Source: Bacteroidota bacterium
Lineage (GTDB): Bacteria; Bacteroidota; Bacteroidia; Bacteroidales; UBA932
Assembly (NCBI GenBank): GCA_017860395.1
Contig: JAGDMC010000013.1
Location: 1 to 15,263 of the forward strand
Reading direction: 5' to 3'
Length of the DNA: 15,263 bases
Every line of letters starts with the position of its first letter. Position 1 is the first letter of the stretch. The translations under genes and the position numbers were made by a program. Below are positions 2,062-12,936 of this stretch, piece after piece. The notes beneath the pieces are model-generated. The model did not search any database. It saw nothing but the letters and a program-made list of their open reading frames with translations, and had not been told where the DNA came from.

Positions 2062-2086
2062 TGCAACTATTTGTTGCAAATTTGCA
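2062..2086. promoter_or_regulatory. Overlapping TGCAA inverted repeats, candidate operator before the sigma gene
   Basis: Two inverted repeats overlap here. TGCAAC (2062-2067) pairs with GTTGCA (2073-2078) across five bases. TGCAAATTTGCA (2075-2086) is a perfect 12-bp palindrome. They end 16 bases before the sigma-factor ATG at 2103 and lie within the divergent region shared with the TPR promoter. I see no perfect TTTG/TAnnTTTG promoter for the sigma gene, so this stretch may overlap a promoter of another class or be a regulator site. The function is inferred from symmetry and position only. Confidence 0.4.
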
Positions 2087-2102
2087 TCTATAACATATAT
2101 TT

Positions 2103-2648
2103 ATGACAGTTCGGCACCGGGAATATTCAAATGAAAAGGAGGTTATAGAAGGTTGTGTAAAGCGGGATCCCCGCGCACAGCGCATTCTGTACGATTCCTA
2201 TTCTTCGCGTTTATTCACGGTGGCATTAAGGTATGCGGGTGACAGAGAGAGGGCAAAGGATATTTTACATGACGGATTTATAACTGTTTTTGAAAAAATA
2301 GGCAGTTATAACGGGAGTGGATCGTTTGAGGGGTGGCTAAGGAGAATATTTGTGAACACGGCTCTCATGGCTCTTAGAAAGGCAGATGTTTTAAAGAACA
2401 GCGGGGAGTTGAATTCGGTAGCGGGAGAGTTTAGCGACAATCCATCGGCTCTTGACGAAATATCCTCGAAAGAGCTGCTTAAGGTAATCGCTTCGATGCC
2501 GGACGGTTTTAGGATGGTTTTTAATATGTTTGCAATAGAGGGTTATTCCCATCAGGAGATAGCCGAAGAATTAAATATAAGCGAAAGCAGTTCCCGCTCG
2601 CAGTTGAGCAGAGCAAGGGTCTGGCTTCAGGAAAGGATTAGGAGGTAG
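2103..2648 (+). CDS. ECF-type RNA polymerase sigma factor
   Basis: This 181-residue protein has the two-domain layout and length of extracytoplasmic-function sigma factors. The sigma-2 region covers about residues 25-95, with the region 2.2-like core AKDILHDGFITVFEKIGSYN and the region 2.4-like FEGWLRRIFVNTALMALRK. The sigma-4 region covers about residues 122-178, with a helix-turn-helix in GYSHQEIAEELNISESSSRS followed by QLSRARVWLQE. There is no region 1 or 3. It would bind core RNA polymerase and direct it to envelope-response promoters. The downstream gene starts one base after this stop codon and encodes a protein with an anti-sigma-like N-terminus, so the two are almost certainly co-translated and act as a sigma/anti-sigma pair. 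The regulon cannot be read from this window. No Shine-Dalgarno sequence precedes the ATG; the upstream region carries overlapping palindromes. Confidence 0.92.
   Translation: MTVRHREYSNEKEVIEGCVKRDPRAQRILYDSYSSRLFTVALRYAGDRERAKDILHDGFITVFEKIGSYNGSGSFEGWLRRIFVNTALMALRKADVLKNSGELNSVAGEFSDNPSALDEISSKELLKVIASMPDGFRMVFNMFAIEGYSHQEIAEELNISESSSRSQLSRARVWLQERIRR
2640..2645 (+). promoter_or_regulatory. Strong AGGAGG ribosome binding site inside the end of the sigma gene
   Basis: AGGAGG lies four bases before the ATG at 2650 and inside the last codons of the sigma gene. It supports this start for the anti-sigma-like gene and is notable because most genes in the window have no Shine-Dalgarno sequence. 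It fits tight translational coupling of the sigma factor with its membrane partner. Confidence 0.6.
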
Positions 2649-2649
2649 T

Positions 2650-3888
2650 ATGCAGGAAAATGATTTTGACAAACGGGTAAGAGATATGATGGAAAGCCAC
2701 GGAGAGCTGCCACCGGCAGATTCGTGGAACAATATTTCGTCGTCGCTTATACGAAGAAGAAGGGGCGTTGTGCTCAGGAGAGGGTTTGGTTCGCTCGCAG
2801 CTGTTGCGGCGGCCGTTGCGCTCTTTTTTGTAATGGGCGGAGGCGATCTTTTTACTTCGAAACCGGAATTGCCAGTTCTTAATGCAGGTATTTCCCAAAA
2901 GGATATGCCTAAGGAAAAAATTGCCGTAGTTGAAAAACAGCAACCGGAAATTGCCGATGCAGGAAGCGCGGTTAAGAGATTTTCTTCCGTAAAGAGTGCT
3001 GTGGCCGATAAAAATACACAGGCAAATGTAACGGTAACGGCAAAAGCCGGAGATGTCACTACCGGGCCGGAAGCTGCAAAACAGATTGTAAAACAAATTG
3101 CGAAAGAACCGGCTGTGGCAGAAAATACCGGTCAGAAAACAGATGCAAATAAAGAAGTAAAAAAAGATACGAAAGAAAAAATAGAGACCGGGGAGAGAAA
3201 GACTTTGGAAATGGTTGAATATGAGGAGTCTGTAAATAGTAAAAGATTTAAACTGAACAAGCCGCTGCTTGCTTTCTCAACTATGCTCTCCCCCTCTGTT
3301 TCTTCCGGCTCAATGGAACTTCTTTCAAGGGCAAATACAGGTCACAAGGATATGTTCTCGTCTATGGACAGGGAACAGATACCATACGAAAATTTATATG
3401 ACACTAAATATATGCCTCCTGTTTCAGTTGGATTTCAGGTTGTGCTGCCGGTGGACAAGAGGGTCTCTTTTGGCACAGGAATCAACTACACTCTGCTCTA
3501 TTCTTATACCGATGTGCAAAACAGAAACGGAAGCGAGCGTCAGGAGCAGACTGTCCATTATATAGGAGTTCCGTTCAATCTCTATGTTAATATTCTTGAA
3601 AGTAAAGGTTTCCGCCTTTATGCCAATACAGGGGTAATGCTTGAAAAGGGGCTTGCTTTGAAATACAAGGTTATTGGCGATATTCCGGAAAACCATACTC
3701 AGAGCGTGTCGGGAGTGCAGTGGTCGGTTGGGGCAGGTATCGGAGGCGAATACATGGTACACAAAAATCTGGGGCTATATGCCGATCCGTCTGTTTCATA
3801 TTTCTTCCCGGGAGGTCAGCCTGTAACAGTAAGAACTGTTCAGCCTTTGCAATTTAAATTTGAAGTAGGTTTAAGGTTCCATCTTTAA
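2650..3888 (+). CDS. Dma-like protein: anti-sigma-like N-terminus, one TM helix, long linker and outer-membrane beta-barrel
   Basis: The 412 residues divide into four parts. Residues 1-44 are a short cytoplasmic segment (FDKRVRDMMESHGELPPADS, then WNNI) ending in an arginine-rich stop (RRRRG, 35-39). Residues about 46-63 form one transmembrane helix rich in Ala, Val and Phe. Residues about 64-205 are a low-complexity Lys/Ala/Glu/Thr linker. Residues about 206-412 look like an outer-membrane barrel, with alternating strands such as VSVGFQVVLPVDKRVSFGTG and the terminal strand QFKFEVGLRFHL. The short N-terminus resembles those of Bacteroidota anti-sigma factors. With the sigma gene one base upstream, this matches the dual membrane-spanning anti-sigma (Dma) layout reported in Bacteroides thetaiotaomicron. 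Inference: it anchors in the inner membrane, crosses the periplasm and reports outer-membrane state to the sigma factor. Alternatively it is simply annotated as an outer membrane beta-barrel protein. The architecture is seen; the function is inferred. Confidence 0.75.
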   Translation: MQENDFDKRVRDMMESHGELPPADSWNNISSSLIRRRRGVVLRRGFGSLAAVAAAVALFFVMGGGDLFTSKPELPVLNAGISQKDMPKEKIAVVEKQQPEIADAGSAVKRFSSVKSAVADKNTQANVTVTAKAGDVTTGPEAAKQIVKQIAKEPAVAENTGQKTDANKEVKKDTKEKIETGERKTLEMVEYEESVNSKRFKLNKPLLAFSTMLSPSVSSGSMELLSRANTGHKDMFSSMDREQIPYENLYDTKYMPPVSVGFQVVLPVDKRVSFGTGINYTLLYSYTDVQNRNGSERQEQTVHYIGVPFNLYVNILESKGFRLYANTGVMLEKGLALKYKVIGDIPENHTQSVSGVQWSVGAGIGGEYMVHKNLGLYADPSVSYFFPGGQPVTVRTVQPLQFKFEVGLRFHL

Positions 3889-3920: not shown

Positions 3921-4940
3921 TTGGCAACAATTGCAGTAGTTATCCTTAACTGGAACGGGAAACACTATCTCGAAAGATTTCTCCCTCTTCTCGTAAAACA
4001 TTCAAGAATCGAAGGTGTGTCAATTGTTGTTGCCGACAATGGCTCAACTGACGGATCTGCAGACTGGACTGAATTTATGCACCCTTCGGTGCGGGTAATA
4101 CGATTCCCCGAAAATTACGGTTTCACAGGTGGTTACAACAAGGCTCTTGCTCAGATAGAGGCCGACTATTATATACTTCTGAACTCCGATGTTGAGGTTA
4201 CTCCCAATTGGATTCAGGAGCTCGTTGCGGGATTTGAAAACAACCCGGCTGCCGGAGTTGCCATGCCTAAGATTTTGTCTGCATTTGACAGGGAGAGTTT
4301 TGAATATGCAGGTGCATCGGGCGGCTTTATAGACCGTTTGGGCTATCCGTTTTGCAGAGGCAGGATTTTATCAAATATTGAAAAAGACAAAGGACAGTAT
4401 AATCTCGATTCTCAGGTTTTCTGGGCATCAGGTGCAGCAATGATGGTGCGGAGCGATCTTTACCACAAGCTGGGCGGTCTTGACGATAACTTTTTTGCCC
4501 ACATGGAGGAGATTGACTTTTGCTGGCGCGCTCAGCTGAGCGGCAGTGAAGTATGGGTATTTCCTTCGTCGGTGGTTTACCATGTTGGAGGAGGAACTCT
4601 TCCAAACAATTCTCCAAAAAAGCTCTATCTTAATTACCGGAATAACCTGCTCATGCTGTATAAAAACCTTCCTCAGAGGAGACTCCGTTCCGTTCTTTTT
4701 GCCAGAAAGCTGTCGGACGGGTTGTCTGCGGTTGTGTATCTGCTTCAGGGTAAAAAAAGCTTCTTCATGGCAGTATGGAGGGCGCACATGGACTTCTACA
4801 AAATGAAAGGAAAGGTTGTGCGCACGCAAGGGGCAGACAATGTCAGTCTTAAAGGAGTATTTAAAGGATTGATCGTTTTGTCGTTCTTGCTAAACAGGGG
4901 CAAACCCCGGTTTATCGAGATTGCCCCTGATGTAGAGTAA
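3921..4940 (+). CDS. Family 2 glycosyltransferase (COG1216 / rhamnosyltransferase-like)
   Basis: This 339-residue cytoplasmic enzyme has a GT-A fold. It would transfer a sugar from a nucleotide sugar to a growing surface glycan. Visible motifs are VVILNWNG at the N-terminus, the nucleotide-binding VVADNGSTDGS, the metal-binding LLNSDVEV, the acceptor-site ASGAAMMVR and MEEIDFCWRAQ, and HVGGGT. The C-terminal part holds basic and hydrophobic helices that may sit against the membrane. The start is TTG (3921), chosen because the conserved first strand follows at once and no ATG lies nearby. It begins 32 bases after the Dma-like gene and may be transcribed with it. The donor and acceptor sugars cannot be told from sequence. 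It converges with murF, and I see no convincing terminator in the 21-bp gap. Confidence 0.9.
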   Translation: MATIAVVILNWNGKHYLERFLPLLVKHSRIEGVSIVVADNGSTDGSADWTEFMHPSVRVIRFPENYGFTGGYNKALAQIEADYYILLNSDVEVTPNWIQELVAGFENNPAAGVAMPKILSAFDRESFEYAGASGGFIDRLGYPFCRGRILSNIEKDKGQYNLDSQVFWASGAAMMVRSDLYHKLGGLDDNFFAHMEEIDFCWRAQLSGSEVWVFPSSVVYHVGGGTLPNNSPKKLYLNYRNNLLMLYKNLPQRRLRSVLFARKLSDGLSAVVYLLQGKKSFFMAVWRAHMDFYKMKGKVVRTQGADNVSLKGVFKGLIVLSFLLNRGKPRFIEIAPDVE

Positions 4941-4961: not shown

Positions 4962-6266
4962 TTATGCCAGTATTTCCAGGACTTTTTCCAGTTTTGTTCC
5001 CCTTGAACCTTTTATAAGGATTGTATTGCCTTTTATGGGGTTGAGAGAAAGGTACTCTCTCAAATCCACAGAGGTGTCAAAGAATTTCCCTTTTTCTCCA
5101 AAAAACGGATTCCCTTTTGCTGCGGAATGAAACTCTTTTCCTACGAAGTAATAGTTTTGCGCATTGAGTTCTTGTGCAAATGCCAGAATTTCTTTGTGCT
5201 CTTCATGTGAATCTTTTCCCAGCTCCAGCATATCTCCCATTATGAGGCTCTTTAACGGAACCTGCATGGACGAAAAGTTGTCTAAAGCAGCATGCATGCT
5301 TGTGGGGTTTGCATTGTATGCATCCACTATCAGCAGGTTGTCTTTGCCTTTTAGAAGCATGGACCGGTTGTTAACAGGAGTGTAATGCTCAATTGCCATT
5401 ATAGCTGCCTCTCTATCAATGCCAAGCTGTTCGCCGGCGGCAAGCGCTGCCATTACATTGTCGGCATTGTAGGACCCAATGAGCAGGGTATTAATAATTA
5501 TTCCCTCTTTTAATGCTATGCGCAGATAAGGATTTTCCGGTGTAACGGGAAGGATTATTGCTCCGGAGTCGTGTAAACCGTACGAAGTCTTCCTCAGGGT
5601 TTTCCTGGCGGCAATCATTTCGCAAAGTATGGGGTTATCTATGTTAAAAAGCGCAATTCCTTCTCTTTTTTTGAGTGCATCATAAAGCTCTCCTTTTGTT
5701 TTCTTAACACCTTCCAGCGAGCCGAATCCAAGTAAATGGGCCTTGCCCACGTTGGTAATGAGTCCTATGTCGGGCAAAGCAATGTCGCATAGTGTTTTAA
5801 TCTCTCCCGGTGCGCTCGCCCCCATCTCAATTACTGCTATTTCGCTCTCTTTTGTGAGTTTGAGAAGAGTCAGCGGAACTCCGATATGGTTGTTAAGGTT
5901 GCCTGTTGTTGAAGTGACTTTATATTTTTTTGACAGAACTGCTGTAATGAGTTCTTTTGTTGTAGTCTTTCCGTTTGTGCCCGTTAGTGCGAAAACCGGC
6001 AGGGCAAGCTGCTCTCTGTGGTAGCGGGCAAGTTGCTGAAGTGCCTTTAGGGTATCGGGAACAGATATAATCCTGTCGCCTTTTAATCCCGGCCTGTCTG
6101 CAACAGCGTATATTGCACCGGCATCAATTGCTTTTTGTGCATAATCGTTGCCGTCGAAATTGTCACCTTTAAGTGCAAAAAAAAGATTTCCCTGTGCTAC
6201 TGCACGACTGTCTGTGGTTACTCCTGTCGATTCCAGAAAAATGCTGTACAGTTTTTCGATTTTCAT
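4962..6266 (-). CDS. murF: UDP-N-acetylmuramoyl-tripeptide--D-alanyl-D-alanine ligase
   Basis: MurF adds the D-Ala-D-Ala dipeptide to UDP-MurNAc-tripeptide using ATP, the last cytoplasmic step in building the peptidoglycan monomer. The 434-residue length is normal for the family. The N-terminal substrate domain carries TTDSR (17-21). The central Mur ligase domain has the P-loop TGTNGKTTTKE (95-105), then NLNNHIGVPLTL (123-134), VIEMGAS (145-151) and TNVGKAHLLGFGS (171-183). The C-terminal domain has DAYNANP (315-321), characteristic of MurF, and KGSRG (419-423). All key motifs are intact. It starts 12 bases after dut ends and is the last gene of the patatin-flippase-dut-murF run. In many bacteria murF sits in the dcw cluster with other mur genes; here it stands apart from them. 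Confidence 0.97.
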   Translation of the reverse strand: MKIEKLYSIFLESTGVTTDSRAVAQGNLFFALKGDNFDGNDYAQKAIDAGAIYAVADRPGLKGDRIISVPDTLKALQQLARYHREQLALPVFALTGTNGKTTTKELITAVLSKKYKVTSTTGNLNNHIGVPLTLLKLTKESEIAVIEMGASAPGEIKTLCDIALPDIGLITNVGKAHLLGFGSLEGVKKTKGELYDALKKREGIALFNIDNPILCEMIAARKTLRKTSYGLHDSGAIILPVTPENPYLRIALKEGIIINTLLIGSYNADNVMAALAAGEQLGIDREAAIMAIEHYTPVNNRSMLLKGKDNLLIVDAYNANPTSMHAALDNFSSMQVPLKSLIMGDMLELGKDSHEEHKEILAFAQELNAQNYYFVGKEFHSAAKGNPFFGEKGKFFDTSVDLREYLSLNPIKGNTILIKGSRGTKLEKVLEILA

Positions 6267-6278
6267 ATAAAATGTATT

Positions 6279-6713
6279 TTACTTTTTGCCTGTAGATCCA
6301 AATCCTCCCTCTCCGCGGCCGCTTTCGCCAAGTTCTTCAACGCATTTCCATTCCACGCGTTCGAATTTAGCCACGACCATTTGAGCTATCCGCTCACCCG
6401 GGTTTAAAACAAACTCTTCGTTGGATAGGTTCACAAGAACGATTTTTATCTCGCCCCTGTAGTCGGCATCAATTGTTCCGGGGCTGTTTACGATTCCTAT
6501 ACCATGCTTTGCGGCAAGTCCGCTTCTCGGGCGGATTTGAGCCTCATGACCTTCGGGAAGTTCAATGTGAAGCCCGGTAGGAATAAGGACCCTTTCGAGT
6601 GGAGATATTGTTATACTCTCTTCAATGTTGGCCCTGAGGTCCATTCCGGCAGAATGGATTGTTGCATACTGAGGCGCGTCAAAGCGGGATTTGTTTAAAA
6701 TTTTAACTTCCAT
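6279..6713 (-). CDS. dut: Deoxyuridine 5'-triphosphate nucleotidohydrolase (dUTPase)
   Basis: This enzyme hydrolyses dUTP to dUMP and pyrophosphate, which keeps uracil out of DNA and supplies dUMP for dTMP synthesis. At 144 residues it is a standard trimeric dUTPase with all five motifs in order: AGMDLRA (22-28), [12 protein letters not shown] (61-72), [12 protein letters not shown] (79-90, with the catalytic Asp83), GERIAQMVV (106-114) and the C-terminal arm [10 protein letters not shown] (133-142). The start overlaps the end of the flippase gene by 19 bp, indicating translational coupling. murF follows after 12 bases. No signal peptide is present, as expected for a cytosolic enzyme. Confidence 0.97.
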
Positions 6714-8170
6714 AAGGTAATCTTCTCGGTTTTTAGATATAATAAAACAAAGGCGAGTAAAAGAACTGTATTAATTGTGTATTTAATTACAAAATGAACC
6801 TCCGGTACAAGCAGGGATGCCAGATATAGCAGGATGCCCGACCCGATGTATGTGATAATTTTTTTCCAGTCGTACGGGATAGGATAGTGCTTGTTTCCAA
6901 GATAAACGCTTAATATGAACATTACCAAATAGCTGAGCAGATGCCCCCACGCTGCAGCGTGATATGAGTAAAGAGGCATGAAAATGACATTAATGAGGAT
7001 TGTTATTGGGAGCCCTGCCATTGTAATATATATGGCGTAGTTTGTTTTTCCGGAGAGCTTGTACCACATGGAAACATTAAAGTTCATACCAAGTATCACA
7101 TAGGCAAGCAGCATAACGGGAACAATGTCTATTCCCGACTGGAAGTTTCTGCCTATTATGAGCGCTATTATATCCAGATACATCATCATCCCAAGGAAGA
7201 TGAACATGCAGAATGCTGTAAAATGCTCCATAACCGAGGCATAAAGCTCTTTGGACTTAGCCTCTTTTGCTCTTGAAAAGAAAAACGGTTCGGCAGCATA
7301 ACGGAACATCTGTATGAAAAGCATCATCAGTGTCGCAAATTTTACCCAGGCCTGGAAAATACCAAGATCGGACTGCCACACATGTCCTTCCGGAGAGAAA
7401 AAACGGAACAAAGGGCGGTCGATGAAGTCGTTTAGTATTCCGGGAAGTCCGGCAGCCATCAGAGGGAGAGAGTAGAGCATCATTTCCCGCCAAAGTTTAG
7501 GATTAAAGTTAAACTTCAACCTGAAGAGGTCTGGAATGAAAAGTACAAGAGAAACAATGCCGCTCAAAAAGATTGCGAATATAATGTATGTGAAATCGGG
7601 CGTTGCGGATACGAAATTAAGGAGAAACGAATCCGGATGGGATGCGAGATAGGACGGAACAGCAAAAAACAGCAGGAAGTTAAACAGTGTTTCGGAAAGA
7701 ATCTTTATCGTTTTGAATACTGCAAATTTTATTGGCCTGTGTTCAAAGCGGATTTTTGCAAAAAGAATAGAGGTAAATGAATCTATTGCAAGGATGCTTC
7801 CAATGAACCAGATGATGTTTGAAAATCCGTCATATTGGAGCCATGACGATATGTCGCCGGCAAAAACTCCCATTGATATGAAAAAGAGCAGCGACAGGAT
7901 GCCAACAGTTAAAAGGGCGTTGGAAAATACAGAAGCCGGTTTGTCGTGTTTGTTTGCGAAATTGAAGCATCCGGTTTCAAGCCCCAAAGTAAGAATCACC
8001 TGCAACATTGCTATATAGGCAAGAAATTCGGCTGCAATTCCATAGCTCCCCGTTGTGAGCATGCGGGTGTAAATGGGGACGAAAATGAAATTTATGAATC
8101 TGGCAAGAATGCTACTCATGCCGTAAATGACTGTTTCTCCTGCAAGTTTTTTAAGTGGATTGGCGCTCAT
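6695..8170 (-). CDS. Oligosaccharide flippase / polysaccharide biosynthesis protein (Wzx-like, MATE superfamily)
   Basis: This 491-residue integral inner-membrane protein has roughly 12-14 hydrophobic helices spread along its length. It opens with the typical flippase start [18 protein letters not shown] followed by [11 protein letters not shown] and the SYGIAAEF motif region. Family members flip lipid-linked oligosaccharides across the inner membrane for O-antigen, capsule or other surface glycans. The hydrophobic C-terminal segment ([18 protein letters not shown], then [15 protein letters not shown]) fits the last two helices. It starts 7 bases after the patatin gene stop and overlaps dut at its end. 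The substrate is unknown; lipid II flipping (MurJ-like) cannot be excluded, but a glycan flippase is more likely. Confidence 0.88.
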
Positions 8171-8176
8171 CCGGGA

Positions 8177-10492
8177 TTAGTTTGATAAAGATTTTGACTT
8201 AAACAGCAGCAAACCAATATTCAGCTGGGGATACCATTTTACATCTCCTTTCTGGTAGTAGGTTGCAGACAGCGAAATAGGCCCCACAGGCGACTGCCAT
8301 ACTAAAGCGGCATTGCCCATAAAGGACCCGGTTGGGAACGGATCGGAAAAAGCTGCTGTACCGTCCTGATTTTGTATAAGTAACTGGTATGGCTGGAAAT
8401 ATGTGAACTGAGTATTGAGAAATACATTGTTTGCTATGCGTATAATAGGGTTAACTCCTGCAGCGAGATATGTGGGGGCGCGGTATCCCTTCATGAGGAG
8501 TGTCTTGCTGTGCGGATTTGGCTGAAATGCAGGTAAGCTGATGAGAGTGGAAATGTAATCGGCAAATATTATATTATTTGAAACCGTGAAATCAATAATT
8601 GACCCCAATGTAAACCATTTGTTAATTGGATAATATACCTCCGATGAAAATCTGGCCTTAAACCGGTGATTTATCTTTTCGTTAATTGGTGTCATCTCCT
8701 GTGAAGTGCTGCCAGGTTTGTAGTCGGACGACATGAATGTATAACCTACTGTCAGCCTCTGGTTCATACCTTCGGTGGGATAAATTCTGTAGTTTGTGTT
8801 GTTTTTTTCTAAAATGAAAGACGGAGCAACGAAATTTATTCCGGATATATCTGGCAAATCGTATGACGTAAAGTTGTCTGTGAGGTAGTATTCGTATGCG
8901 TTACGGCCTATGCTGATATTTAATTTTCCAAGTATGCTTCTTCGCAGGTCAATAGGGGTGCCAAAGCGTAATGTTGCAAACATTTCATTTTCCTCAATGC
9001 TTGTAGGGAGCCTGTCGGTATAGTACCTTGTCTGGCTTCCCCCAAAATAGTCGAACTTGTGGGCAGTGAACTCTATTTCGTAAAACATAAGAGGTTTAAC
9101 GGAGAAGTCCTTGCGAAAGGATACAGTTCCTCCGGTATAGAACCTGCCAAGGTTTGCGTCTATGGATACTTTCCACGGGTAGAGGGAGAAATGCCGGTAT
9201 TCTAAACCAACATACCCCTGGTTGAGAGAAGATGAAGAGATATTTCCTCCGATTGCCAGCCTCAGTGGCTGTGTTTCCGATATTCTGAGATGAAGGTCAA
9301 ATAGAGAGTCTTTGTTCATCTTTGTTGTTGGGTAGAAGGTGTTCACATTGCCGGACGAAACGACGCGGAAGTATCCTCTTTTTATCACATCAAAGCCTAC
9401 GGGGTCTTCCCGGTGATTCTTAATGGTATTGCTTATGAATTGCTTTTTCCCGGATTTAAGAGAGTCGGGATCGAAATATACTTTGTCAAATATAAGCTGA
9501 GGGCATTTCTGACGGAAAGCAAGCCTTTTTTCCTGCAGTTCTTTTGCAGAGATTCTTGTTTTTATACGCTTTTTGAGTTCGGGGATGAATTTAAGCGCAA
9601 GCTCATATCCCTTTTGAACAAGTTCGTCTGTTTTTTGGAAATCAAGGAGATTCACATCGGGGTATGCGCCATCTATGAGTATTCCCTTGTCTTCCGGGAT
9701 ATCATAGTTTGTCTCCTTCATCATCATGTTCTCAATCTGAGTCATGAGGTCCTCGGCCTCCGGCTCGATTGGATTTTTTGAGCACTTAACGCCAATAATG
9801 TAACCAGGGTTGAAATCCTTTGCCATTACATCCCATGGGAAGTTATTGTATAAACCCCCGTCAAAAAGGAGGGTTGAATCTATCATTATCGGTTTGAAAA
9901 CGAAAGGAAAGGTCATTGAAGCGCGGATGGCCGAGCCAAGGTCGCCTTTGCGGATTATGAACGGCTTTTTTGCGGCGATGTCTGCAGCGACACAGCGGAA
10001 CGGGACCATAAGCTTGTCGAAGTTATATCCGGAGGCAGCAGAAGAAGAGGCAAAAAGCTGAATGAGGGCAATGTCCATCGGATATGGCGAAATAATGCTG
10101 GTAGGCAGGATATAGCTAATCTTTTTTTCTTTCGGATTAAGGCTGAATGTTGCACCGAAAAGTTCGGCAGTAGATTCTCTGCGATATATGTATGTTGAGA
10201 AACTTTTTTCGGATATACCCTGTTGCCATGAGGCAAACTCTGCAGAGCGGAAAAGAGTAACCATTTCATCGGGGGTGAGTCCTATTGCGTAAAGGCCGGA
10301 TATTATTGCCCCCATTGAAGTGCCGGCGACATAGTCTATTGGGATATTGTTCTCTTCCAGTGCTTTTATGACTCCAATGTGTGACAGCCCTTTTGCCCCG
10401 CCTCCGCTGAGAACCAGCCCTACACTTTGTGCGCTAATGTTTCCGACGGCAATTGTCAAAATCAGAAGAATCAAAAGTTTTTTCACTTGCAT
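8177..10492 (-). CDS. Patatin-like phospholipase fused to a POTRA-like segment and an outer-membrane beta-barrel
   Basis: The 771 residues begin with a signal peptide (MQVKKLLILLILTIAVGNIS, cleaved near AQ). The patatin domain (about 23-310) has the oxyanion motif SGGGAKG (29-35), the nucleophile elbow GTSMG (57-61, Ser59) and the catalytic DGG (211-213, Asp211), so the Ser-Asp dyad is intact. Residues about 330-405 look like a POTRA-type alpha/beta segment. Residues about 410-771 form a 16-strand-like barrel of the BamA/Omp85 surface-antigen type, with many alternating aromatic strands. This resembles the type Vd (PlpD-like) autotransporter layout, common in Bacteroidota. It would cleave acyl chains of phospholipids at the outer membrane. 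Whether the patatin domain faces the periplasm or the surface cannot be decided here. It is the first gene of the minus-strand run toward murF. Confidence 0.92.
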   Translation of the reverse strand: MQVKKLLILLILTIAVGNISAQSVGLVLSGGGAKGLSHIGVIKALEENNIPIDYVAGTSMGAIISGLYAIGLTPDEMVTLFRSAEFASWQQGISEKSFSTYIYRRESTAELFGATFSLNPKEKKISYILPTSIISPYPMDIALIQLFASSSAASGYNFDKLMVPFRCVAADIAAKKPFIIRKGDLGSAIRASMTFPFVFKPIMIDSTLLFDGGLYNNFPWDVMAKDFNPGYIIGVKCSKNPIEPEAEDLMTQIENMMMKETNYDIPEDKGILIDGAYPDVNLLDFQKTDELVQKGYELALKFIPELKKRIKTRISAKELQEKRLAFRQKCPQLIFDKVYFDPDSLKSGKKQFISNTIKNHREDPVGFDVIKRGYFRVVSSGNVNTFYPTTKMNKDSLFDLHLRISETQPLRLAIGGNISSSSLNQGYVGLEYRHFSLYPWKVSIDANLGRFYTGGTVSFRKDFSVKPLMFYEIEFTAHKFDYFGGSQTRYYTDRLPTSIEENEMFATLRFGTPIDLRRSILGKLNISIGRNAYEYYLTDNFTSYDLPDISGINFVAPSFILEKNNTNYRIYPTEGMNQRLTVGYTFMSSDYKPGSTSQEMTPINEKINHRFKARFSSEVYYPINKWFTLGSIIDFTVSNNIIFADYISTLISLPAFQPNPHSKTLLMKGYRAPTYLAAGVNPIIRIANNVFLNTQFTYFQPYQLLIQNQDGTAAFSDPFPTGSFMGNAALVWQSPVGPISLSATYYQKGDVKWYPQLNIGLLLFKSKSLSN

Positions 10493-10513
10493 AATAAGGG
10501 TAATTGAGGTAAT

Positions 10514-10543
10514 TTTGCCTTGATTACAAAGGTAATAAATTTG
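10514..10543 (+). promoter_or_regulatory. Bacteroidota-type promoter for the cyclophilin gene
   Basis: TTTG (10514-10517) is followed after 18 bases by TAAATTTG (10536-10543), matching the TTTG/TAnnTTTG consensus at all fixed positions. The -7 box ends 23 bases before the ATG at 10567. The spacing is the same as in the TPR promoter at 2000-2029. Confidence 0.7.
10527..10534 (-). promoter_or_regulatory. Candidate -7 box for the patatin-flippase-dut-murF run
   Basis: On the minus strand this reads TACCTTTG, a perfect TAnnTTTG box 34 bases before the patatin ATG. The matching upstream TTTG is not at normal distance: the nearest (10549-10546) is only 11 bases away. The call therefore rests on the -7 box and position. 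It sits inside the spacer of the divergent cyclophilin promoter. Confidence 0.4.
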
Positions 10544-10566
10544 AACAAAACTTATAACTTATCCAT

Positions 10567-11235
10567 ATGAAGAATAAAATTTTTAATTTACTGATAATCA
10601 CATCGATGGTTATTTTTTCCTGCAAAGGCAACAAGCAGGAAAATGCAAACGCAAATCAAACTAAACAAGAGGACTCAACTGTTATGACTAACACCAATTT
10701 AGCTTTTAATCCTTCCGATCTTCCGGAAGAACCGGTTTTTGACATTGAAACAACTGCCGGCACAATCCGAATCAAACTTTATAAAGAGACCCCTCAGCAC
10801 AGGGATAATTTCGTTAAACTTGCCTCTGAAAGGTTTTACGACGGAATTTTATTCCACAGAGTAATTAAAGGGTTTATGATTCAGACAGGTGACCCGCTCA
10901 CCAAGGACACTTCTGCTGTGGCAAGATATGGCACAGGCGGTCCGGGATATAATGTTCCTGCCGAAATCCTGCCTCAGTTCAAGCACAAGAAAGGAGCTCT
11001 TGCAGCCGCAAGAAGAGGCGGCCCGGGCAATCCTCAAAAAGAGTCTTCGGGCTCGCAGTTTTATATCGTTGAAGATGCCGGAACATGCGCTCAGCTCGAC
11101 GGGGACTACACCGTTTACGGCGAAACTATAGACGGTTTTAACGTGATTGACAAAATCGCAGCAACCCCAACCGACCAGCGCGACAAACCCAATACAGACA
11201 TTAAGATTATATCTGTAAAACCGGTACTGAAATAG
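10567..11235 (+). CDS. Lipoprotein cyclophilin-type peptidyl-prolyl cis-trans isomerase
   Basis: This 222-residue protein interconverts cis and trans X-Pro bonds in exported proteins. It has a lipoprotein signal peptide with lipobox VIFSC (acylated Cys19), then a Lys/Asn/Gln-rich linker to about residue 55. The cyclophilin domain spans about 57-220 and has the active-site FHRV (96-99, Arg98), GFMIQTGDP (102-110), GSQFYI (162-167) and YTVYGETIDGFNVIDKI (181-197). The usual HTVFG is YTVYG here, a common bacterial variation. The protein should be tethered to the inner or outer membrane, facing the periplasm. It is monocistronic: its own promoter lies upstream and a strong hairpin terminator downstream. 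Confidence 0.95.
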   Translation: MKNKIFNLLIITSMVIFSCKGNKQENANANQTKQEDSTVMTNTNLAFNPSDLPEEPVFDIETTAGTIRIKLYKETPQHRDNFVKLASERFYDGILFHRVIKGFMIQTGDPLTKDTSAVARYGTGGPGYNVPAEILPQFKHKKGALAAARRGGPGNPQKESSGSQFYIVEDAGTCAQLDGDYTVYGETIDGFNVIDKIAATPTDQRDKPNTDIKIISVKPVLK

Positions 11236-11268
11236 ACCTCGCGGCGCAGCCGCACCATGGTTAGCAAT

Positions 11269-11301
11269 AAAAATGAAGGGGGCATTGCCCCCTTCATTTT
11301 T
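11269..11301 (+). terminator. Strong intrinsic terminator after the cyclophilin gene
   Basis: AAAAATGAAGGGGGC (11269-11283) and its exact complement (11287-11301) form a 15-bp perfect stem with a 3-base ATT loop. The GC-rich core is flanked by A on the left and T on the right, so it can terminate in both directions. It lies 34 bases after the cyclophilin stop codon. Confidence 0.9.
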
Positions 11302-11351
11302 GTTAATATACTGCTAATTGTTGAGCTTAACTTGCACATAACCAATATTAT

Positions 11352-11390
11352 ACTAAAAAGGATGGCATCTTAGATGCTATCCTTTTTAGT
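11352..11390 (-). terminator. Intrinsic terminator at the end of the TonB receptor-MlaE-MlaF run
   Basis: An 18-bp stem pairs 11352-11369 with 11373-11390 around a TTA loop. Its AAAAAGG/CCTTTTT outer part gives a U tract in either direction. One position pairs as G-U in the plus-strand RNA but becomes an A/C mismatch in the minus-strand RNA. It lies 28 bases beyond the MlaF-like stop codon and backs up the cyclophilin terminator. Confidence 0.8.
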
Positions 11391-11417
11391 AATGCGCGAC
11401 AACGAAAATCTTCTCCC

Positions 11418-12185
11418 TCATCGGGCCGCCTGCTGCATCATCTCCTTCACTTTCTTTGCCATGTTGTTGGCAAAAACGAATTCGTTGAGTTCGGCGCTGT
11501 TGGATGTAAGAATGTCGTTACGGCTTCCTTCCCATACTTTTTCGCCTTTGTGGATGAAAGAGACCTGGTCGCCAATTTCCATAACCGAGTTCATGTCATG
11601 GGTGTTCACGATGGTAGTGATGTTGTACTCTTCAGTAATCTCTGCAATCAGCTGGTCAATGAGGATTGATGTATGCGGGTCAAGTCCTGAGTTTGGCTCG
11701 TCGCAGAAGAGGTACTTCGGATTTAGTGCTATTGCCCTTGCTATTCCGACTCTCTTTTGCATGCCTCCGCTCAGTTCATTGGGAAACAACTTGTTTACGT
11801 TTATCAGATTTACTCTTTTCAGGCAGAAGTTTACGCGCTCCAGCTTTTCCTCCTTGCTCCATTCTGTAAAGAAATCCATTGGGAAACGGATGTTCTCCTC
11901 AACTGACGCAAAGTCGAAAAGTGCACTTCCCTGAAAAAGCATTCCTATCTCCTTACGGATATTTTTTATCTCTTTTTCGCCAAGGCTGCTAAAGAGGACA
12001 TCGTCGTACCATATCTCTCCGCTATCAATTGGGAGAAGCCCCACCAGCGATTTAAGCAATACTGTCTTTCCTGACCCGCTCGCACCAATCACCAGGGAGC
12101 ATTTCCCCGGCTGGTATTCAATGGAGATGTCTTTCAGGACCTGTTTCTCTCCAAAAAATTTATTTAGTTTTACTACTCGGATCAT
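11418..12185 (-). CDS. MlaF-like ABC transporter ATP-binding protein
   Basis: This 255-residue cytoplasmic ATPase would power phospholipid movement between the membranes with its permease partner. It has Walker A GASGSGKT (34-41), Q-loop Gln85, signature LSGGMQKRVGIARA (138-151), Walker B YLFCDEPNSGLDP (158-170, with Asp162 and catalytic Glu163) and switch His196 in NTHDM. The GMQKR form of the signature and the SGLDP D-loop are typical of the MlaF/Mkl group. It starts one base after the MlaE-like gene, so the two are translationally coupled. No MlaD-type MCE gene follows; a terminator does. In Bacteroidota the MCE partner is often encoded elsewhere. Confidence 0.93.
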   Translation of the reverse strand: MIRVVKLNKFFGEKQVLKDISIEYQPGKCSLVIGASGSGKTVLLKSLVGLLPIDSGEIWYDDVLFSSLGEKEIKNIRKEIGMLFQGSALFDFASVEENIRFPMDFFTEWSKEEKLERVNFCLKRVNLINVNKLFPNELSGGMQKRVGIARAIALNPKYLFCDEPNSGLDPHTSILIDQLIAEITEEYNITTIVNTHDMNSVMEIGDQVSFIHKGEKVWEGSRNDILTSNSAELNEFVFANNMAKKVKEMMQQAAR

Positions 12186-12186
12186 A

Positions 12187-12936
12187 TCAGACTAACATTA
12201 TATGGGTGATAACCAGATTGGCCACAAGTATCAAAACGCTGCTTGCAACAATTGCCTTTGTGCTTGAGCTTCCAACTCCAAGCGACCCTCCGGATGCATA
12301 GTAGCCATAGAAGGATGATATGCTGGTAATTATGAAGCTAAAGACAGCCATCTTTGTCATGCTGTAAAAGATGTAATAGGAACGGAAGGCGTAGTGAAGA
12401 CCGTCTACATACTGGCTCATTGTAACAATGCCGGTAATGAAGATTATCATTGCTCCTCCCAAAAGTCCAATCATGAAGCTCATCAGCATCAGAAAAGGAT
12501 TGAAGATTGTAGCTGCCGATATTTTTGGAAGAATCAGGTAGTTTGCCGAATTTATCCCCATTATTTCCATCGCATCTATCTGCTCTGTTATCCGCATACT
12601 GCCTATCTCCGATGAGATATTTGAACCTACTTTGCCGGCAAGTATCAGGGCAATCATTGTAGAACAGAATTCAAGTACCAGACTTTCTCTTGCCATATAA
12701 CCCACGTACATTTTGGGGATGAAAGGGCTTTCGATGTTTGAGGCTGTCTGGATAACAATTACTGCTCCAATGAATACGGAAATTACTGCAACGATAGGTA
12801 TAGAGTTAAGCACAAGCTTCTCAACATCTGTAAAAAACTGTTTCCAGAAAATTGAGCTCTTGTCGGGTTTGGTAAAGACTTTCCTCATGAGGAGGACATA
12901 TCTTCCCAATATATCCAGTGCGTTTTTCATTATCAT
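12187..12936 (-). CDS. MlaE-like ABC transporter permease
   Basis: This 249-residue inner-membrane protein has about five hydrophobic helices, near residues 42-64, 88-102, 138-160, 160-175, 195-212 and 228-248, the boundaries being approximate. The family hallmark GSMRITEQIDAMEIMGI (112-128) is clear, preceded by Glu110. With MlaF it forms the core of a lipid transporter that keeps the outer membrane asymmetric. Two in-frame ATGs (12936 and 12930) compete for the start. A promoter-like element ends five bases before the first, which would make that start nearly leaderless and may favour the second. The TonB receptor gene ends 21 bases upstream. Confidence 0.92.
   Translation of the reverse strand: MIMKNALDILGRYVLLMRKVFTKPDKSSIFWKQFFTDVEKLVLNSIPIVAVISVFIGAVIVIQTASNIESPFIPKMYVGYMARESLVLEFCSTMIALILAGKVGSNISSEIGSMRITEQIDAMEIMGINSANYLILPKISAATIFNPFLMLMSFMIGLLGGAMIIFITGIVTMSQYVDGLHYAFRSYYIFYSMTKMAVFSFIITSISSFYGYYASGGSLGVGSSSTKAIVASSVLILVANLVITHIMLV

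Follow-up and report, generated by a model that had tools for sequence, protein, structure and literature searches.

Anti-sigma factors of the Dma family, known from the Das1-Dma1 and Das2-Dma2 pairs of Bacteroides thetaiotaomicron, combine an anti-sigma binding domain, a transmembrane helix, a long disordered tether, and a C-terminal barrel in one protein; family members lie adjacent to ECF sigma genes, with ECF21 sigmas encoded beside them, and Dma1 works through nigD1 (PMC13088901). EcfO-Reo of Phocaeicola vulgatus and Bacteroides fragilis is described along similar lines: the anti-sigma factor is predicted to span the periplasm and to carry a C-terminal outer-membrane barrel, the P. vulgatus system is induced by envelope-damaging toxins, and the regulon includes three nigD genes (PMC9308784, PMC13114119). 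In P. vulgatus, the locus tags are nigD 03762, ecfO 03761, and reo 03760 (PMC9308784, PMC13114119).

Here, we describe a gene pair that we read, with a probability of about 0.8, as a Dma-class (Reo-class) sigma/anti-sigma switch with a candidate TGCARC-N16-GCATCT regulon. The pair lies in the window, by which we mean the whole stretch of DNA analysed (15,263 nucleotides), corresponding to one contig (C100) of the 1.77 Mb genome (G000) of an uncultured Bacteroidales bacterium; the genome comprises 280 contigs and is 73% complete. Among named records, a Bacteroidales MAG comes closest, its sequence matching the second gene at 96% identity. A first-pass annotation, made from the sequence alone, had proposed an ECF sigma gene coupled to a second gene that begins one base after it; both open reading frames were confirmed, with Sigma70_r2 and Sigma70_r4_2 domains in the first, and the TAG stop at 2646-2648 is indeed separated from the anti-sigma ATG by the single base 2649. 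The AGGAGG that this annotation placed in an overlap is also present, but it sits in the 3' end of the sigma gene, and the two genes do not overlap (Table 1).

Table 1. Features of the sigma/anti-sigma locus, with positions in the window
Feature	Position	Strand	Remarks
Putative sigma self-promoter, TGCAAC-N16-GCATCT	2062..2089	+	13 nt 5' of sigma ATG
ECF sigma factor, 181 aa	2103-2648	+	Sigma70_r2 E 1.1e-14, Sigma70_r4_2 E 9.4e-15 (Pfam); TIGR02937 sigma70-ECF E 1.4e-27; tree clade A
AGGAGG	2640-2645	+	within last sigma codons, 5' of anti-sigma ATG; read from sequence
Anti-sigma ORF, 412 aa	2650-3888	+	PF13568 OMP_b-brl_2 E 2.2e-07, residues 245-379
Residues 1-44, conserved cytoplasmic segment, presumed sigma-binding part	2650..2781	+	38% mean identity over 34 homologues; helix 3-15, start of helix 25-62
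Residues 45-64, inner-membrane TM segment	2782..2841	+	hydropathy 2.07; 44% mean identity
Residues 65-248, disordered tether	2842..3393	+	pLDDT <50 for most of 69-243; 19% mean identity
Residues 249-412, 8-stranded outer-membrane barrel	3394..3885	+	

The pair is flanked by a TPR gene (265-1980) and a glycosyltransferase gene (3921-4940), with no nigD beside the sigma gene, whereas the dma2 operon of B. thetaiotaomicron has BT_1557. Farther along, positions 4962-12936 of the window are full of envelope genes, among them a Mur ligase, a polysaccharide flippase-like protein, a patatin-like protein, and an MlaE permease with its ABC ATPase. A search against Rfam matched nothing at the gathering threshold.

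The domain order of the second protein is largely as first proposed. Its one hydrophobic segment, which starts at residue 45-46 and has a Kyte-Doolittle value of 2.07 across 19 residues, agrees with the suggestion of a 44-residue N-terminal segment followed by a single transmembrane helix. AlphaFold2 modelled helices at residues 3-15 and 25-62 with confidence no better than low to moderate (block pLDDT 52-75), gave most of residues 69-243 a pLDDT below 50, and placed strands across residues 249-410 at a block pLDDT of 88-98, in keeping with the C-terminal beta-barrel that had been anticipated. The linker had been put at about 140 residues rich in Lys, Ala, and Glu; its composition stands (K 12%, A 10%, E 10%), but its length is closer to 184 residues, and among 35 proteins the tether ranges from 137 to 268. 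The barrel is 8-stranded and OmpA/OprF-like, although its likeness to the 8-stranded barrels of OmpA, OprF, and NspA is one of fold only; the window barrel is joined to a tether, a transmembrane segment, and a cytoplasmic segment. Foldseek with the whole 412-residue model returned weak E-values, and a sequence search of the PDB (query A1) gave no credible match, with a best E-value of 0.17. The N-terminal 44 residues form a conserved, predicted-helical segment that is presumed to bind the sigma factor.

This architecture is widely retained. At E <= 1e-3, we recovered 90 homologous proteins. In 89 of them, a single clear hydrophobic segment lies close to the N-terminus, and the sole exception is a 304-residue protein (P0027) that lacks this end; likewise, all four parts lie within one open reading frame in 89/90. 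Matches to the anti-sigma protein were present in 40 of the 60 genomes searched, the window's own included. Because the N-terminal hydrophobic segment is kept in nearly all homologues and the match recurs in so many genomes, a chance fusion of open reading frames was ruled out. Gene coupling is equally consistent: the sigma gene stands directly 5' of the barrel anti-sigma gene in 51/51 distinct pairs (38/38 from sigma clade A and 13/13 clade-B-like), counting once the duplicate loci from one genome (L002/L008, L001/L007, L036/L188, and L178/L190).

These clades come from a tree of 43 sigma factors, which splits with support of 98/94 into clade A (38 members, including that of the window) and clade B (5 members); eight of the 13 clade-B-like pairs were picked by similarity and fall outside the tree. 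In four genomes (G026, G027, G028, and G055), both clades are represented, each by one pair, and of the 25 genomes of the window's genus only one showed a second pair, of the clade-B-like kind (G006, with 7% contamination, the pair being outside the tree). The two groups differ in their neighbours, with nigD adjoining 7/13 clade-B-like pairs versus 1/38 clade-A pairs, where the clade-A count covers flanks of roughly 0.5-1.5 kb. That single clade-A case is a nigD-like ORF just behind the pair of G030 (L183, 2606-3201). We considered nigD adjacency as evidence for the window's pair and set it aside, since the tree places most nigD-adjacent pairs in the other clade.

Upstream of the sigma genes, we noticed a shared pattern consisting of TGCARC, 16 bases, and GCATCT, whose spacing and sequence resemble the -35/-10 elements of an ECF promoter. 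With a spacer of 15 or 16 bases, the pattern is exact by the sigma start in 35/38 clade-A pairs (L032 counted among them); of the remaining three, two deviate at a single position and the third at three positions. Among the 25 same-genus genomes, G003 is without the pair, and the other 24 all carry the site without mismatch before their sigma gene (24/24), as do 8/9 other genera of the family and 3/5 other families; the spacer is 16, or 15 in G040 and G053. For three loci (L177, L179, and L181), the site overlaps a sigma start inferred by alignment. Mononucleotide shuffles of positions 1881-2102 yielded the site in 1/200000 cases. In a per-ORF control across 23 same-genus loci, restricted to ORFs that are 150 aa or longer and have all 320 nt of upstream sequence, the site preceded 19/67 ORFs, all 19 being the sigma gene, and 0/48 others; four sigma genes (L013, L018, L025, and L027) are outside this count because their longest ORF begins above the site. 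We prefer this control to a backwards-pattern control, which is weak because the reversed pattern contains CpG, and left unused the one-mismatch matches in G000 and G021, which were too numerous to inform. A motif for EcfO of B. fragilis is stated to have been published in 2013 (PMC7366714), and the site found here may thus not be new; a search of the available literature brought up no paper printing an EcfO promoter consensus.

In clade B, by comparison, the exact TGCARC-N15/16-GCATCT site was found in 0/5, and the intergenic regions show, by eye, TGCAGTATT or TGCAAGATT. At three loci (L180, L194, and L195), nigD and the clade-B sigma gene diverge, and AATACTGCA ... TGCAGTATT was noted by eye between them, an arrangement suggestive of two promoters for the clade-B sigma factor placed back to back.

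What might the clade-A site control besides the sigma gene? In the 25 same-genus genomes (about 58 Mb), which are not independent of one another, the pattern with a spacer of 15-17 occurs 171 times, or about 3 per Mb, including 24 occurrences at the sigma gene, 10 before nigD-like genes, and 19 before L-asparaginase genes. Counted from the genes instead, the site lies upstream of 10/10 same-genus nigD genes found by PF12667 and of 19/19 same-genus L-asparaginase genes (22 other same-genus genomes searched), in the latter case 82-236 nt 5' of the aligned start, and Pfam confirmed NigD_N, NigD_C, and asparaginase domains. Three nigD ORFs (L147, L149, and L150) begin, at their longest, above the site; for these, a Met within the ORF and immediately below the site served as the start. 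Two further sites are outside these counts: one before an asparaginase gene in G023 (L108), because that genome was not in the asparaginase search, and one before a nigD gene in G016 (L099), because PF12667 did not find the gene. A third group of candidate targets is represented by four loci (L078, L101, L106, and L111). In all of them (4/4), the gene behind the site codes for a small lipoprotein, and the next one encodes a protein in which the radical SAM motif CxxxCxxC was identified by eye; further lipoprotein genes stand behind other sites. Both matches per genome in G003 and G019 are explained by sigma, nigD, or asparaginase sites, and 5/7 exact N16 matches in G021 precede genes, with 2/7 inside ORFs. 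Within the 40 stretches examined, many exact sites fall in long ORFs and probably arose by chance. The candidate regulon as a whole points to NigD, the reported output of Dma1 and Reo, for which induction by stress has also been described. The asparaginase and lipoprotein-radical SAM targets are candidates of the present study, not found for Das-Dma in the available portion of PMC13088901, and a literature search for a link between NigD and asparaginase gave none among the matches listed.

Other arrangements were observed in passing. In three genomes (L074, L115, and L121), a FabD-like gene (labelled by eye) comes after the nigD gene that bears the site, whereas in G004 (L124) and G010 (L134) an exact site stands before a FabD-like gene and nigD is absent between them; FabD could be the older target of the site. 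Four genomes also have a spacer-15 site 465-488 nt 5' of a gene for a lipoprotein-like protein of 500-514 aa (L100, L105, L110, and L116).

Beyond the genus, the exact site was found at 0/7 nigD genes, where the best match has one mismatch (L140), and at 0/1 asparaginase genes (L173). In the window's own genome, exact copies of the site occur only twice, once before the sigma gene and once inside a long open frame, and no match to NigD or asparaginase was found; as that genome is only 73% complete, this absence neither supports nor refutes the regulon there.

The proposal that the second protein is a member or relative of the Dma class is supported by its domain order, by the adjacent ECF sigma gene, and by a candidate regulon pointing to NigD. 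The evidence supports a real and new member with the Dma/Reo architecture, set beside the Dma proteins, themselves from Bacteroidota, by their described domain order and gene adjacency, not by sequence. It is a further step to regard the window pair as the orthologue of EcfO-Reo or Das1-Dma1. The architecture is the same, and a nigD output (a candidate one here) would be shared, but nigD, seemingly adjacent to ecfO by locus tag in P. vulgatus, rarely neighbours sigma genes of the window's clade, and the genomes carrying one pair of each clade also speak against orthology, which we consider doubtful.

Alternative workings of the pair itself must also be weighed. The transmembrane segment might be cleaved, at synthesis or on signal, leaving the cytoplasmic part to act as an ordinary inner-membrane anti-sigma factor with the barrel separate, such that a span of both membranes would be absent or short-lived. 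A lone hydrophobic segment with a disordered linker behind it would allow such a scheme, and anti-sigma factors elsewhere are freed by proteolysis; the usual signal-peptide n-region, however, is far shorter than the 44 conserved residues that precede the hydrophobic stretch, and the near-universal retention of the four parts in one ORF likewise argues against separation. We therefore regard cleavage as improbable. Even with a real two-membrane switch, the TGCARC-N16-GCATCT sites might be read by another regulator or sigma factor, the self-site being shared through a chance of common control. Several ECF sigmas in these genomes could serve as such a reader, yet the presence of the site at nearly all clade-A sigma genes and none of the five in the sister clade is what self-control predicts, and its resemblance to the -35/-10 elements of an ECF promoter points the same way; a separate reader thus seems very improbable.

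Computation shows the architecture, the gene coupling, how well the site is conserved, and which genes stand behind it, and on the reading of the pair as a Dma-class switch we propose the following working. Residues 1-44 would hold the sigma factor at the inner membrane, while the transmembrane helix and disordered tether would cross the periplasm to a barrel seated in the outer membrane. A disturbance of the outer membrane may then act through barrel and tether to free the sigma factor, which is predicted from the DNA to read TGCARC-N16-GCATCT promoters, presumably its own first. In the window's genus, further predicted targets would be nigD-like genes, a leader-bearing L-asparaginase, the lipoprotein-radical SAM pair, and other lipoproteins.

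More tentatively, and at slightly less than even odds, Bacteroidales may hold two paralogous two-membrane sigma switches that are related but use different promoters: TGCARC-N15/16-GCATCT in clade A, and TGCAGTATT/TGCAAGATT, often beside nigD, in clade B. In the window's genus, nigD would have moved under the clade-A site together with the leader-bearing asparaginase and the lipoprotein-radical SAM pair, that is, a regulon would have passed between outer-membrane sensors.

Overall, the evidence supports the finding as real, with the Dma-class reading resting on architecture and with a candidate regulon that is testable. That one protein can carry a signal from the outer membrane to the cytoplasm was found recently, and the available literature describes such pairs from Bacteroides and Phocaeicola; our comparison extends the architecture through several Bacteroidales families. 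Beyond the known architecture, it adds a promoter candidate, candidate outputs besides NigD, and a picture of two sigma clades, which may respond to different signals.
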